Shown here one piece after another: positions 21,284 through 45,264 of a stretch of DNA of 45,264 nucleotides. Location of the stretch: the NCBI RefSeq assembly GCF_026241095.1, contig NZ_JAPFGB010000040.1:1-45264 (forward strand), in the 5' to 3' direction. The DNA comes from Saccharopolyspora sp. NFXS83 (lineage in GTDB: Bacteria > Actinomycetota > Actinomycetes > Mycobacteriales > Pseudonocardiaceae). The number at the start of each line of letters is the position of its first letter. The first letter of the stretch is position 1. The translations under genes were made by a program, and so were the position numbers. The notes below the pieces were generated by a model, which did not search any database, was not told the DNA's origin, and saw nothing but the letters and a program-made list of their open reading frames with translations.

Positions 21284-23575
21284 TTGTCCAACGCCCGAGC
21301 AGATCGGGGACCCGACCGCACCGACGACCTGACCGCCGAGCAGCAGTACGTCTCGACGCTCTACGACAAACTCGACGAACTCCGCCGGGACGCCACGAAA
21401 CGGCTCACCGACACGCTGCGCCAGACCGGCGGCACGCCGCAGGCGCGCACCGAACGCGACATCTCCACCACCATGTACACCGACAAGCTGACCCAGCTCA
21501 GCGCGGTGGAGCACGGGTTGTGCTTCGGACGGCTCGACCTGGACAGCGACGAGGTGTTCCACATCGGACGCATCGGCCTGTTCGACGAGGAACGCGAGTA
21601 CGAGCCGCTGCTGATCGACTGGCGCGCTCCGGCGGCCCGGCCGTTCTACCTGGCCACCGCCGCCGCCCGCGACGGCGTGTGGCGGCGCCGCCACCTGCGC
21701 AGCAAGTGGCGCACCGTGGTCGACCTGGAGGACGAGATCCTCGACCTCGACGCCGGTGAGCAGGGCAGCGACCTCGGCCTGGCCGGGGAGGCGACGCTGC
21801 TGGCGGCGCTGGACGCGCGGCGAACCGGGCAGATGGGCGACATCGTCGCCACCATCCAGGCCGAGCAGGACCGCATCATCCGCGCCCCCATGAACGGGGT
21901 GCTGGTCGTGCAAGGTGGTCCGGGCACCGGCAAGACGGCGGTGGCGCTGCACCGCGCGGCGTACCTGCTCTACACCTACCGCGAACAGCTCACCAAGCGC
22001 GGCGTGCTCGTGGTCGGGCCGAACTCGACGTTCCTGCGCTACATCGGCCAGGTGCTGCCCTCGCTCGGCGAGACGGGTGTGCTGCTGTCCACGGCCGGGG
22101 AGCTGTTCCCCGGTGTCTCGGCCACCGCCCCCGAATCCGCCGAGGCGGCGGAGATCAAGGGGCGCGGCGTGATGGTGAACGTGCTCAACTCGGCCGTGCG
22201 CGACCGCCAGCAGGTCCCGAAGGAACCCATCGAGGTCCTGTTCGACCGGGAGCCGCTGTCGGTGGGCAAGAACCTCGTTTCGAACGCCCGCAGCCGCGCC
22301 CGCAGGTCCCGGAAACCGCACAACCACGCGCGCAAGATCTTCCGCAAGGAGATGATCTCGGGCCTGACCAACCAGGTCGCCGACCGGCTCGGCCGGGACC
22401 TGCTGGACCGGCGCGACTTGGACGACATCGGCGCCGAACTGCGCGCCGACGACGCCGTCACCGAGGTCCTCGACTCGCTGTGGCCGCAGCTGACGCCGCA
22501 GCGGGTGCTCGACGACCTGCTGAGCGTGCCGAAGCGGCTCACCACCGCCGCCCGCAAGCACCTCACCGACCGGGAGCGCCAAGCCCTGCTGCGCGCACCC
22601 GGCTCGGCGTGGACGCCCGCCGACGCGTCGCTGCTCGACGAGCTGGCCGAACTGCTCGGCGAGGACGACACCAAGGCGCGCGAGGAGCAGGCCCGCCAGG
22701 AACGCGAAGAGCTCGCCTACGCCCAGGGCGTGCTGCACCTGATGGAGCAGGACGAGGAGATCGCCGACGAGGAGCGGCTGCGGGTCTCCGACGTGCTCGA
22801 CGCCGAACTGCTCGCGCAGCGCCACCGCACCCGCAGCGACCTCACCGCCGCCGAACGCGCCGCCGAGGACCGCACCTGGACGTTCGGGCACGTCATCGTC
22901 GACGAGGCGCAGGAACTGTCGGCGATGGCGTGGCGGGTGCTGATGCGCCGGTGCCCGAGCCGGTCGATGACGCTGGTCGGCGACATCGCGCAGACCGGCG
23001 CGCTCGGCGGCGCGGCCTCCTGGCACGAGGTGCTCTCGCCGTACGTGATGGACCGGTGGCAGCTCGCCGAGCTGACGGTGAACTACCGGACGCCCGCGGA
23101 GATCATGTCAGTGGCCGCCGACGTGCTCGCGGCGATGGACACCGACCTGGAACCGCCGGCGTCGGTGCGCACCAGCGGGCACGCGCCGTGGACCCGGCAG
23201 GTGCCGGAGGCGGACCTGCCGGAGGTGCTGCCGGAACTGGTGCGCGCCGAACTCGACGCCGTCGACGGCACGCTCGCCGTGCTGCTGCCGCCGGAACACC
23301 TCGCCGAGGTCGGCGGGCGGATCGCCGAGAAGGTGCCGGAAGCCGAGGTCGGCGCCCAGCAGGACGAGCTGGAGGCGCGGGTCGTGGTGCTCACCGTGGA
23401 CCAGGTCAAGGGCTTGGAGTTCGACTCGGTGCTGGTCGCCGACCCGGACCGGATCCTGGGCGAGTCCGCGCGCGGGCTCAACGACCTGTACGTAGCGCTC
23501 ACCCGAGCCACCCAACGCCTCGGGGTCGTGCACACCTCATCAGGGGTGCCGTCGGTGCTCGGGGGGCTCGCGTAG
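21284..23575 (+). CDS. helD: HelD-like RNA polymerase-recycling helicase (UvrD/SF1 family)
   Basis: The 763-residue protein has the actinobacterial HelD architecture. An N-terminal coiled arm (about 15-75; LTAEQQYVSTLYDKLDELRR) would enter the secondary channel. A HelD-specific segment follows (FGRLDLDSDEVFHIGRIGL and LLIDWRAPAARPFYLATA). Walker A is GGPGTGKT at 211-218, then AVALHRAAYLLYTYR. A long inserted helical region covers about 300-500. Walker B is VIVDEAQELS near 540, with LTVNYRTPAEIM and a final VKGLEFDSVLVAD-NDLYVALTRATQ. HelD removes stalled RNA polymerase from DNA, and some relatives displace rifamycin. TTG at 21284 is preceded by AGGTGGAG. Whether it gives drug tolerance here is unknown. 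Confidence 0.88.
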   Translation: MSNARADRGPDRTDDLTAEQQYVSTLYDKLDELRRDATKRLTDTLRQTGGTPQARTERDISTTMYTDKLTQLSAVEHGLCFGRLDLDSDEVFHIGRIGLFDEEREYEPLLIDWRAPAARPFYLATAAARDGVWRRRHLRSKWRTVVDLEDEILDLDAGEQGSDLGLAGEATLLAALDARRTGQMGDIVATIQAEQDRIIRAPMNGVLVVQGGPGTGKTAVALHRAAYLLYTYREQLTKRGVLVVGPNSTFLRYIGQVLPSLGETGVLLSTAGELFPGVSATAPESAEAAEIKGRGVMVNVLNSAVRDRQQVPKEPIEVLFDREPLSVGKNLVSNARSRARRSRKPHNHARKIFRKEMISGLTNQVADRLGRDLLDRRDLDDIGAELRADDAVTEVLDSLWPQLTPQRVLDDLLSVPKRLTTAARKHLTDRERQALLRAPGSAWTPADASLLDELAELLGEDDTKAREEQARQEREELAYAQGVLHLMEQDEEIADEERLRVSDVLDAELLAQRHRTRSDLTAAERAAEDRTWTFGHVIVDEAQELSAMAWRVLMRRCPSRSMTLVGDIAQTGALGGAASWHEVLSPYVMDRWQLAELTVNYRTPAEIMSVAADVLAAMDTDLEPPASVRTSGHAPWTRQVPEADLPEVLPELVRAELDAVDGTLAVLLPPEHLAEVGGRIAEKVPEAEVGAQQDELEARVVVLTVDQVKGLEFDSVLVADPDRILGESARGLNDLYVALTRATQRLGVVHTSSGVPSVLGGLA

Positions 23576-23576
23576 G

Positions 23577-23700
23577 GGTCGCGGAGCGGAACTTCGGCGT
23601 TCTTCTCGCCGCAGGAGCACTGCCACGAGCGGCACCGCCACGCTGGAAGTCGCCGTCCTCGCGAGGAGAACGCCGAGAGCCCGCTGCGGTGCCGCTCGCT
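23577..23700 (+). repeat. Dispersed hairpin repeat, diverged copy (copy C)
   Basis: A left arm at 23593-23609 (TTCGGCGTTCTTCTCGC) pairs with 23661-23677 (GCGAGGAGAACGCCGAG) over 17 positions if two G-U pairs are allowed. The GCGGAAC left flank matches the family, while the inner 51 bases have diverged from the core of copies D, F and G; CGTCCTCGCGAG at the right side is kept. It lies between convergent helD and the FAH gene, where it may end transcription. Confidence 0.65.
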
Positions 23701-31497: not shown

Positions 31498-32053
31498 TGC
31501 GCAAACCTCCCTCGTCGGTTCTCGTGCTGGGAGAACACCGCGACGTGCGCGGTGATCTCTTCCGGGCACGGGACGACGCTGGCCCGCGTGGGCGTCCGGC
31601 GCTGGACGGATGATCGGCCGAGCCGGGCAAGGGCACCGCGCTCGGCGAAAGCAGCTCCGGTCGGCGAGCCGGAAAGCGGCAGTGGAGTGCGAGCCGCAGA
31701 GACCGCCGTTCCGGCGAGCGGAGCGGTCGGATTCTTCAAGCACCAGGCCACGACGGGCACCCTTGCCACGACCCGAGTTCGCCGAACCTTAACAAGCACG
31801 ATACCCGGAAGCAGCACCGCAAGTCAGCTCTCGGCCGGCGTGAATATTCCGACTTCCCAGCGAACCGCGCCACCCGCCGCAGGTGGACGGCGGGGATCCG
31901 CACCCGGTCTCCGCGAGTGACGATCAGTTCCTGGTATCTTTCCAGCTCGGGGCGCTCGTGGCAGCGAATTCCGGTGCGTTCGCGCGCGGCGTCGCCGCCA
32001 GCCACCGCACCCGGCGCGCACACGTGGCGCACCGGCCCGACCACGAGGACGTC
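31498..32053. other. Gene-free divergent region between gltB and the importer gene
   Basis: About 556 bases separate gltB (minus) from the substrate-binding protein gene (plus). On the minus strand TAAGGT at 31786-31791 is a candidate -10 box, which would give gltB a leader of about 280 bases. On the plus strand TATCTT at 31935-31940 is a candidate -10 for the importer. I found no cobalamin riboswitch B12-box, no iron-box-like sequence and no known glutamine-type RNA in it. Confidence 0.4.
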
Positions 32054-33007
32054 ATGCTCGGGTTCCGCCGCATTCCCGCCCTGCTGCTGGCCGTGCTGGC
32101 CCTGCTGTTCGCCGGCACCTCGTGCGCCACGCGCACACCGTCCCCCGCACCGGAAGCCCCGGTCGAGGACCCGGCCGCCGCGTTCCCCGCGCAGATCACC
32201 ATCGAAGGCCAAGAGCCGGTGACGCTGCCCCAGCAGCCCAAGAGCATCGTGTCGCTGAGCCCCACCGCCACCGAATCGCTGTACGCCATCGGCGCGGGCG
32301 AGCAGGTCAAGGCCACCGACCAGTTCTCCACCTTCCCCCCGCACGCACCGCGCACCGACCTCAGCGGCCTCACCAGCGACGCCGCGGCCGTCGCCGGCCA
32401 CGACCCGGACCTGGTCATCGCACCCGAAGGTGCCGGCAAGCTCGTCGACGGACTGCACGAGCTGGAGATCCCGGTGCTGGTCACGCCGTCGGCGGCGTCC
32501 CTGGACGAGGCGTACGCGCAGATCGAGACCCTCGGCCAGGCCACCGGGCACAGCAGGCAGGCCCACGACGTGACGCGGCGGATGCGCGACGACATCGCCA
32601 AGATCGTCGCCGACACCCCGAAGCCGCCGGAGCCGCTGAGCTACTTCCACGAAGTCAGCCCGGACTTCTACACCACCACCTCGAACAGCTTCATCGGCGG
32701 CGTGTACGGGCTGTTCGGCCTCACCAACATCGCCGACGAAGCGGGCGGCGCGGGCAACGACTTCCCGCAGCTGGCCCAAGAACGCATCGTGCAGGCCGAC
32801 CCCGACCTGATCTTCCTGGCGGACGCGAAGTGCTGCGGCGCCACCCCGCAGTCCACCGCCACCCGCCCCGGCTGGGACACGCTCACCGCCGTGCGGGAGA
32901 ACCGGGTCATCGCCCTCGACGACGACGTCGCCGGCCGCTGGGGGCCGCGCGTGGTCGACTTGGTACGGGCAGTGAGCGACACCGTCTCCCGCACCCAGCG
33001 GCCTTGA
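32054..33007 (+). CDS. ABC importer substrate-binding lipoprotein (BtuF/FecB type)
   Basis: The 317-residue exported protein begins with a lipoprotein signal (LLLAVLALLFAGTSCA), with lipid attachment likely at the Cys near residue 25. It then has the helical-backbone binding fold of cluster A-II proteins: PKSIVSLSPTATESLYAIGA, later DPDLVIAPEGAGKLVDGL, and GGVYGLFGLTNIADEAGGAG. The SLSPTATE start and overall length resemble BtuF-like cobalamin binders, but ferric siderophore and haem binders look similar. ATG at 32054 is preceded by CGAGGA. Permease and ATPase genes follow after a 316-base gap filled by repeat copy D. Confidence 0.85.
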   Translation: MLGFRRIPALLLAVLALLFAGTSCATRTPSPAPEAPVEDPAAAFPAQITIEGQEPVTLPQQPKSIVSLSPTATESLYAIGAGEQVKATDQFSTFPPHAPRTDLSGLTSDAAAVAGHDPDLVIAPEGAGKLVDGLHELEIPVLVTPSAASLDEAYAQIETLGQATGHSRQAHDVTRRMRDDIAKIVADTPKPPEPLSYFHEVSPDFYTTTSNSFIGGVYGLFGLTNIADEAGGAGNDFPQLAQERIVQADPDLIFLADAKCCGATPQSTATRPGWDTLTAVRENRVIALDDDVAGRWGPRVVDLVRAVSDTVSRTQRP

Positions 33008-33009
33008 GG

Positions 33010-33290
33010 GGCTTCCGGTCGTCTTGTTCTGGTGGTCGGGTAACGGAACCTCAGCGGCTTCCTCGCTGCGGGATCTTTTTCCCGAGTGGCTCCGCCACGA
33101 GGGAAAAAGCCGTCCTCGCGAGGAAGCCGCTGAGAACCCGCCGGTGAGCGGCTTCTCGACGTGGGCTATGCGCTTCGCGCATCCAGGCACGGCCTTCGGC
33201 CGCAAGGCAAGCGGGCTTCGCCGCCCACTGCACGGCCTTCGACCTCAAGGCAGGCAGGCTTCGCCGCCCACTGCGCGGCTTCGACGCTGA
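33010..33290 (+). repeat. Dispersed hairpin repeat, full copy (copy D) with 43-bp tandem units
   Basis: The head TTCCGGTCGT...GGTGGTCGGGT (33013-33041) is shared with copy E. The left arm CTCAGCGGCTTCCTCGC (33050-33066) pairs perfectly with 33118-33134. The 51-base core between them (33067-33117) has an inner hairpin, CTTTTTCCC with GGGAAAAAG and GTGGC with GCCAC. A 35-base module (33148-33182) is identical to one in copy E. Two 43-base tandem units follow (33188-33230 and 33231-33273), beginning CACGGCCTTCG and ending GCTTCGCCGCCCACTG. It fills the gap inside the importer locus and holds no protein gene. Confidence 0.9.
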
Positions 33291-33323
33291 CATGACAGAG
33301 CTGAGCGTTTTCTGCGAGGACTC

Positions 33324-34352
33324 GTGAGACGGATGCCGCGCACCTCCCGGCTGCGGCCGGGGGCGCTGATGGCGGGGGTGGCGGCGTTGCTGCTGGCGCT
33401 GCTCGGCTCGGTGCTGCTGGGGGCCGCTGAGCTCGGGTGGACGCGGGTGCTCGCGGAGATCTGGGCGCAGCTCACCGGTGGGCACTCACCGCTGTCCGAG
33501 CGCGAAGCGGCGATCCTGTGGCGGCTGCGGGTGCCGCGCGCCGTGCTCGGGGCGCTGGTCGGGGCCGCGCTCGGGGTGTCCGGTGCCGCCTTCCAAGGGG
33601 TGTTCCGCAATCCGCTGGCCGACCCGTACCTGCTGGGCGCGGCAGGCGGCGCCGGGCTCGGCGTGACGCTCGTGATCACCATGCTGCCGCAGGCCGGATC
33701 GGCGCCCGGCGCGGCGCAGGCCGCCGCGTTCGCCGGAGCGCTCGGCGGGGTGGCCCTGACCTGGCTGCTGGGGCGTTCCGCGGGCAACGACGCGGCGACA
33801 CTGGTGCTGGCGGGGGTCGCCGTCGGCGCCTTCCTCGCCGCCGGGCAGACGTTCCTGCAGCAGCTGCGGCTGGAGAGCCTGCAGCAGGTCTACCTGTGGA
33901 TCCTGGGCCGGTTGAGCACCGCGGGCTGGACGGACGTGCTGCTGGTGCTGCCGCTGCTGGTGATCTCGGGTGCGGTGCTGTGCGCCTGCTCCCGGCTGCT
34001 GGACCTGCTCGGCACCGGCGACGAGGAGGCCGCCTCGCTCGGCGTGCACCCCGGCCGGGCCCGCGCCGTGGTGCTGGTGGCCGCGTCGCTGGCCACCGCC
34101 GCGGCTGTGTCGGTGGCCGGGCTGATCGGGTTCGTCGGGCTCGTCGTGCCGCACCTGGTGCGGCTGGCCTGCGGCGGGACCTACCGGATCGTCGTGCCGC
34201 TGTCGCTGCTGTTCGGCGGCGCCTTCCTCGTGCTGGCCGACATGCTCGCGCGGACCGCGCTCGCCCCCGCCGAACTGCCCATCGGCGTGATCACCGCGTT
34301 CACCGGAGCACCGTTCTTCGCGGTGCTGCTGCACCGGAGCAGGCGCGCGTGA
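33324..34352 (+). CDS. ABC importer permease (BtuC/FecCD family)
   Basis: The 342-residue membrane protein of the FecCD family has about ten helices. Signatures are WRLRVPRAVLGALVGAALGV, SGAAFQGVFRNPLADPYLLG, the central YLWILGRLSTAGWTDVL and the ATPase-coupling region SVAGLIGFVGLVVPHLVRLA. The C-terminal LPIGVITAFTGAPFFAVLL is typical. It would form the homodimeric channel for cobalamin, haem or a siderophore. GTG at 33324 has GAGGA very close upstream; ATG at 33333 is the alternative. Its stop overlaps the ATPase start (GTGA). Confidence 0.92.
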   Translation: MRRMPRTSRLRPGALMAGVAALLLALLGSVLLGAAELGWTRVLAEIWAQLTGGHSPLSEREAAILWRLRVPRAVLGALVGAALGVSGAAFQGVFRNPLADPYLLGAAGGAGLGVTLVITMLPQAGSAPGAAQAAAFAGALGGVALTWLLGRSAGNDAATLVLAGVAVGAFLAAGQTFLQQLRLESLQQVYLWILGRLSTAGWTDVLLVLPLLVISGAVLCACSRLLDLLGTGDEEAASLGVHPGRARAVVLVAASLATAAAVSVAGLIGFVGLVVPHLVRLACGGTYRIVVPLSLLFGGAFLVLADMLARTALAPAELPIGVITAFTGAPFFAVLLHRSRRA

Positions 34353-35137: not shown

Positions 35138-35260
35138 GTGGTCGGGTAGCGGCTTCTCGACGTGGGCTATGCGCTTCGCGCATACGAGCACGGCCTCCGG
35201 CCGCACGGCAGGCGTGGCTTCGCCGCCCGAGGCACGGCTCGGCCGCTAGACAGGCTCCGC
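35118..35260 (+). repeat. Dispersed hairpin repeat, core-less copy (copy E)
   Basis: The head (35119-35147) matches copy D in 29-base length and most positions. It continues straight into the 35-base module at 35149-35183, identical to 33148-33182, skipping the arms and 51-base core. One 43-base unit follows at 35189-35231. It begins inside the ATPase gene and supplies its stop codon. Confidence 0.85.
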
Positions 35261-36526: not shown

Positions 36527-36705
36527 AGATCTGCGTAGGTGGTCGGGTGGCGGAACCTCAGCGTTCTTCTCGCTGCGGGATCTTTTTCCCGAGTGGCTCC
36601 GCCACGAGGGAAAAAGCCGTCCTCGCGAGAAGACAGCTGAGAACCCGCGGGTGGTCGCTCTGCGTGCGTGGTCGCTGCTCAGCGGCTTCGCCGCTGACAA
36701 GACAC
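36527..36705 (+). repeat. Dispersed hairpin repeat, full copy (copy F)
   Basis: The flank GGTGGTCGGGTGGCGGAAC leads into left arm CTCAGCGTTCTTCTCGC (36557-36573), which pairs with 36625-36641 at 15 of 17 positions. The 51-base core (36574-36624) is identical to that of copy D although the arms differ. The element ends with AGCGGCTTCGCCGCTGACAAGAC (near 36680-36702), the short form seen in copies A and B. It fills the gap between lgt and trpA. Confidence 0.9.
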
Positions 36706-36733
36706 GACCACAAGACCGTGCTGGTCGGTCTCG

Positions 36734-45120: not shown

Positions 45121-45179
45121 TGTGGTGCGGTGGAAGGTCTTCTCTACTGACTGCTTCCAGGGCTCGTGTTGCTGGGGTG

Positions 45180-45264
45180 TCCGGGTAGCGGAACCTCAGC
45201 CGGTCTCTCGCTGCGGGATCTTTTTCCCGAGTGGCTCCGCCACGAGGGAAAAAGCCGTCCTCGC
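45180..45264 (+). repeat. Dispersed hairpin repeat, full copy cut by the window end (copy G)
   Basis: The flank CCGGGTAGCGGAAC leads to left arm CTCAGCCGGTCTCTCGC (45195-45211) and then the 51-base core (45212-45262), identical to copies D and F. Only two bases of the right arm are inside the window. Confidence 0.88.

Follow-up and report, generated by a model that had tools for sequence, protein, structure and literature searches.

Repeats of the ERIC, BIME and MITE type are imperfect intergenic palindromes of about 100–250 bp that display insertion polymorphism, and the attC sites of integrons are hairpins located right after stop codons in one orientation, with the boxes GTTRRRY and RYYYAAC. 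REP sequences are 20–40 bp long, carry a GTAG or CGTC tag and are often accompanied by a RAYT gene, according to the available text of Di Nocera et al. 2013 (PMC3733652). In parallel, the available portions of two papers describe template switching as a process that homogenises the arms of inverted repeats and inverts their spacers (PMC8604942) and propose it as a maintainer of RNA hairpins (PMC8794818).

The 45,264-nucleotide stretch of Saccharopolyspora sp. NFXS83 analysed here (the window) contains four copies of a nested hairpin element, named C, D, F and G, of which C is diverged and G is truncated at the contig end. The element has the size range, the imperfect intergenic palindrome and the insertion polymorphism of ERIC, BIME and MITE-type repeats, but differs from them in sequence and host group, and neither a parent element nor duplications were found for it. 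Like an attC site, it is a hairpin placed after stop codons in one orientation; unlike attC, its ends read GCGGAAC and AACCCGC, not the R boxes GTTRRRY / RYYYAAC, and its copies are dispersed along the chromosome instead of lying in cassette arrays. The closest likeness is to the GTAG/CGTC families of REPs, which also form many intergenic palindromic copies near gene 3' ends, occupy tandem as well as convergent gaps and have stem sequence types of strain-dependent abundance. The element is a REP-like repeat that works like a REP without being a member: it is nested and larger, at ~135 positions against the 20–40 bp given in the available text of PMC3733652, and has no conserved tag, the base before the collar being A (0.37) or G (0.62) in 112 copies and variable across genera. 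A GCCGTCC/GCTGTCC string varies among copies and does not constitute a CGTC tag. Further differences from REPs are the lack of a Y1 transposase in the NFXS83 genome, the mostly single orientation to the upstream gene and one fold common to many genera. Simultaneous changes in both arms and inversion of the loop or spacer are shared with template-switch hairpins, which are described for rRNA, microRNA and yeast genes in the available portions of PMC8794818 and PMC8604942, whereas the element exists as many dispersed copies per genome.

The complete layout is best seen in copy D (Table 1). A sequence-only reading of the window had reported an identical 51-base core in copies D, F and G, flanked by 17-base arms paired at 17/17 positions in D and 15/17 in F, and all of this was confirmed for D and F; in G the core is identical, but the right arm would lie beyond the contig end at 45264, inside the copy, so that only the core could be verified. 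The 17 pairs attributed to copy C are indeed kept, as 15 Watson–Crick and two G·U pairs around a diverged core, and the nested hairpin CTTTTTCCC/GGGAAAAAG is present inside the core of D at 33075–33109. The 85-base arm–core–arm element is thus real, but the conserved unit is larger than that reading had it: it covers about 135 positions (33023–33156 for D, as matched by the covariance model) and includes conserved flanks; a second hairpin lies downstream. Each arm of copy F corresponds to a different arm type found perfect elsewhere, making F a chimera. The tails are of two kinds, type 2 consisting of a CAGCGGC-TTC-GCCGCTG hairpin and type 1 of a row of small hairpins. The first stem of type-1 tails takes 32 different forms among 119 segments, some of which the search pattern misframed, with pairing mostly kept; at 33142–33290, as in many type-1 tails, small hairpins such as GGCACGGCTTCGCCGCAAGGCAGGC vary in number. 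The remnant at 35143–35215 may have lost its hairpin by deletion between short repeats.

Table 1. Element copies, their parts and neighbouring genes in the window.
Feature	Position	Strand	Remarks
Copy C, diverged core	23567..23699	+	Covariance model R2, 80.5 bits; 85-base span 23593-23677
Peripla_BP_2 gene, upstream of D, same sense	31883..33007	+	Stop 35 nt ahead of D collar
Copy D, whole unit	33023..33156	+	Covariance model R2, 125.9 bits, E 6.9e-29; leader, collar ACGGAAC/AACCCGC, hairpin, tail start; 85-base span 33050-33134
Copy D, left arm	33050..33066	+	CTCAG, eight variable positions, TCGC
Copy D, 51-base core	33067..33117	+	Inner helix GGGAU/GUCCU, nested stem, tip
Nested stem CTTTTTCCC/GGGAAAAAG in D core	33075-33083 / 33101-33109	+	
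Tip GTGGC/GCCAC in D core	33086-33090 / 33094-33098	+	
Copy D, right arm	33118..33134	+	Complementary to D left arm, 17/17
Second hairpin, type-1 tail of D	33168..33182	+	ATGCGC TTC GCGCAT; stem variable among copies, pairing mostly kept
FecCD permease gene, downstream of D	33333..34352	+	
Remnant: leader fused to type-1 tail, without hairpin	35143..35215	+	Whole copy at same place in relative G120
Copy F	36530..36663	+	R2 match; arms 15/17, chimeric; 85-base span 36557-36641
Second hairpin of copy F (type-2 tail)	36678..36706	+	CTCAGCGGC TTC GCCGCTGAC
Copy G	45168..45264	+	Ended by contig end; core from 45212

Matches to the 35-base inner hairpin with up to three mismatches number 72 in the 6.9-Mb draft genome, 35 on one strand and 37 on the other, and a reversed control gave none. 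Copy D has a folding energy of −68.9 kcal/mol, z −10.3 relative to 200 dinucleotide-shuffled sequences. Both results uphold the claim that the element does not arise by chance. G120, a related genome in one contig, has 248 matches to the 85-base unit within three mismatches (reversed control 0). A 23-base core pattern retrieved 90 matches in the NFXS83 genome (G000), 30 in G101, 244 in G120 and 160 in G137, and none in the genus genomes G046 and G079 or in 291 genomes of other genera. With hits in 4 of 297 genomes, and with two scans of contig collections, from which near relatives may have been absent, giving no match, the pattern suggested a genus-only element. This was overturned by covariance model R1, built from 50 sequences, which matches in 77 of the family's 297 genomes, belonging to 15 of its 46 genera; because 13 candidates were scored per genome, its copy numbers per genome are lower bounds. 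G046 and G079 carry copies with a different inner core. Twenty of the top-scoring R1 matches, from seven other genera, all cover the full length of the model, which follows from their selection by the model itself. A second model, R2, applied across the class with strict filters and eight candidates scored per genome, found matches in 2 of 394 genomes, both from the same family. Spread by phage or plasmid was rejected, with no match in phage, plasmid or viral-contig collections, and so was a known Rfam RNA family: no match in the window reaches the gathering score, and a search at E up to 5 gave five weak hits at four loci (best E 0.11), all below it. Several contigs of the draft genome start or stop within a copy, as does the window at 45264, and the repeat therefore probably limits assembly.

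Placement relative to genes was determined with our own gene caller on 2.43 Mb containing 162 copies. Of these, 76 lie in convergent gaps, 75 in tandem gaps, 7 in divergent gaps and 4 at the edge of a stretch, and no copy is centred within a predicted gene. Convergent gaps, which make up 18% of all gaps, are over-represented (p 6e-18), and copies in tandem gaps follow the gene sense in 53 cases against 22 (p 0.0004), both p values being too small because related genomes do not supply independent copies. A same-sense gene is found upstream of 129 of 158 copies and is absent for 29; the collar lies 10–60 nt past the upstream stop in 117 of the 129, where uniform placement in the same gaps predicts 32.9, and in convergent gaps only 8 of 76 copies come as near to the gene on the opposite side. 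Outside the genus, 18 of 20 top-scoring copies are located 27–50 nt past the stop of a coding frame, the remaining two having no convincing frame. Since the leader is some 25–40 nt long, the element itself begins near the stop codon. The upstream genes are mostly unrelated (107 clusters among 128), and a gene-linked element was rejected on this basis.

Sense orientation and tight spacing past stops would fit a selected structured 3' UTR RNA, such as a terminator, stabiliser or protein-binding site, which spread only through its usefulness and whose arms are kept by selection, an account we regard as unlikely. Copy D keeps to the after-stop rule, 35 nt past the stop. It splits a transporter gene pair, separating the periplasmic-binding and FecCD permease genes (33007–33333), and copy F, an exception to the after-stop rule, lies antisense between trpA and lgt; both are a poor fit to a simple terminator. 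Sites with a GC-rich stem followed by a T run number five, against 1.3 in shuffles, and three of them are parts of the element's own stem, with a T run of the core as tail; none of the five comes after the complete hairpin, so that the T run expected behind the stem of an intrinsic terminator is absent there, a point against the selected RNA.

The fold is conserved across genera. In an alignment of 32 sequences from eight genera (A3), 97.1% of cells are paired and two-sided changes occur in 20 of the 38 pairs, with a covariation score of 0.410 versus 0.116 for shuffled alignments and 0.049–0.100 with slid partners. Four of five covariation measures lie above every one of the 500 shuffles; the exception, further pair types, gives 38 versus 37.1 and is reached by 209 of the 500. 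A second alignment of 50 sequences, all of the genus (A1), is 95.8% paired and scores 0.248 versus 0.088 shuffled. RNAalifold adds the helix GGGAU/GUCCU beside the core, the two G·U pairs of which are present in 32 and 31 of the 32 A3 sequences; this helix is complete on the sense strand only, because its G·U pairs become A·C mismatches on the other strand. These nearly invariant pairs suggest that some sense-strand structure is also selected and point to a role as sense RNA. Together with the collar and the motifs GGGAUC and GCUGUCC, nearly invariant in the eight genera compared, they argue for the selected 3' UTR RNA. Against it, changes on one side of a pair are rare, with 3 one-sided versus 198 two-sided cells in A3 and 12 versus 138 in A1, with the caveat that instantaneous double changes are reported, in the available text of PMC8794818, to be frequent in rRNA too.

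Pairing of the arms was followed in 256 distinct copies, 249 of them free of edge cuts and 239 with well-placed collars. The arms pair perfectly (17/17) in 167 of the 239, representing 36 distinct perfect arm types, and all eight variable positions (arm positions 6–13) are Watson–Crick in 180, whereas 1000 shuffles of the right arms gave a mean of 13.9 and a maximum of 25. Among 165 high-scoring copies, the off-consensus fraction is 0.22–0.62 at seven variable arm positions and 0.05 at the eighth; elsewhere it is at most 0.06, except at two core positions (0.55 and 0.30). Arm mismatches over all copies comprise 43 G·T, 58 A·C and 55 others, and the 43 single-mismatch copies comprise 15, 19 and 9, respectively. 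The lack of a G·T excess over A·C gives no sign of one RNA strand keeping the arms paired; it counts against the selected RNA, and one-strand RNA selection alone was rejected as keeper of the arms. Arm covariation by itself need not signify selection on the hairpin.

Comparison with relatives reveals turnover of both sites and arms. The NFXS83 genome and G120 are 94.4% identical over the aligned region, and orthologous sites are filled in one species and empty in another among these two genomes and other relatives (51 empty-like and 57 filled-like copy-by-genome rows, which are not independent and were inspected in part). The site of copy D is empty in four of five relatives and holds a different copy in the fifth. 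The view of a structured, mobile-looking element is therefore borne out: the copy count, covariation test and empty-site search that the sequence-only reading had proposed returned many copies, genuine covariation and empty sites. In 22 orthologous filled pairs, retained from 26 by nearby-flank identity, the arms are alike in one (6% at random), and the tail type is alike in all 22 (41% at random), although the flank filter itself favours like tails. Random pairs of copies share the same left arm in 25% of cases within the NFXS83 genome, 21% in G137, 7% in G120 and 2–5% between species. Cores scarcely vary, so that orthologous ones resemble each other about as much as random pairs do. Of the copies with at least two mismatches, 8 of 29 combine two arm types known to be perfect elsewhere. 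Inverted cores or palindromised flanks occur in 8 of 249 copies: the left flank mirrors the right in L255, L007, L216 and L251, the right mirrors the left in L139, and the core is reversed within its flanks in L022, L258 and L071. These eight copies are a footprint of template switching. Homogenisation of the arms by template switching and by exchange between copies can account for much of their covariation. The sequence-only reading thus holds in part: the covariation is genuine, but it does not prove selection on the hairpin.

The same traces could be read as those of a functionless selfish palindrome, its pairing kept by template switching and copy exchange alone. The inversions and palindromised flanks, the turnover of arms in place and the absence of strand bias all agree with such an element, as does the known capacity of template switching to homogenise arms and invert spacers (available portions of PMC8604942 and PMC8794818). 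It nevertheless seems improbable, given that the asymmetric inner motifs and G·U pairs have not been palindromised and the collar is nearly invariant in the eight genera compared.

The ends of the element bear on a third alternative, a MITE of a DDE insertion sequence whose ends are terminal inverted repeats. In its favour, GGGGTCCTTTCAGAATGA-like inverted repeats end some type-2 copies, the left-end pattern has 27 matches in G120 against 0 in a reversed control, with three inward-facing pairs of 223–235 bp, and copy L279, in another genus, carries AGTGCCTGTCTTTGAAC at both ends. Two shorter inward pairs of 89 and 100 bp (G120:C1:2443795-2443883 and 5928820-5928919) are possibly elements that lost the hairpin. 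We consider this origin distinctly improbable: end sequences differ between genera, terminal repeats are not evident in type 1, no consistent target-site duplication was found among the flanks compared, where insertion edges are often blurred by further sequence changes, and no parent element was seen in a transposase search that covered Tn3 and Y1. Tn3 transposase is present as fragments only, in 4 of 6 genus genomes, and is absent from G120, the genome richest in matches; a Tn3-derived miniature element, hinted at by the ends of two copies, was rejected accordingly. The Y1/REP-associated TnpA helper put forward by the sequence-only reading did not hold up either: PF01797 has no match in the NFXS83 genome, while 5 of 14 control genomes have matches, and a Y1/RAYT helper was rejected for this genome.

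Copy number, fold, distribution, polymorphic sites and placement by stop codons are matters of observation, and the element is probably best understood as a REP-like, non-autonomous interspersed repeat that is gained by stop codons, forms a hairpin in the sense 3' UTR and exchanges sequence between copies. On this account, a putative enzyme would insert the element near gene ends, where the predicted hairpin in the mRNA tail may block exonucleases or attenuate transcription and hence be tolerated. Changes in the stem would reach both arms when template switching during replication copies one arm onto the other and when copies recombine; single-arm changes may arise from mutation or exchange and then be copied across by template switching. 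Points against this account are that Y1 transposase is absent from the NFXS83 genome and Tn3 transposase is fragmentary, that the flanks compared gave no consistent target-site duplication, that insertion edges are often blurred, that 29 of 158 copies have no same-sense gene before them and that D and F lie where a simple terminator would be out of place. REPs located no more than 15 nt from a stop codon are reported to reduce translation in E. coli (available text of PMC12306157), and this may serve as a lead for function, though the hairpin of the element sits farther from the stop. A more speculative and very unlikely possibility is that the element acts as a mobile structured RNA homing to stop codons, with the sense transcript taking part in the insertion machinery and the eight variable positions acting as a diversified label, renewed in both arms, that governs exchange or recognition.

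The element is a widespread gene-end feature of one bacterial family, and a literature search by title and abstract, with most subscription papers outside its coverage, found no description of it. In a genome like G120, a single stem is present in ~250 parallel copies, and its variable positions evolve rapidly yet stay paired. Inversions and chimeras among these copies supply the intermediates, so that close strains allow a direct test of how compensatory changes come about: through selection acting by way of mismatched states, or through template switching in one event.
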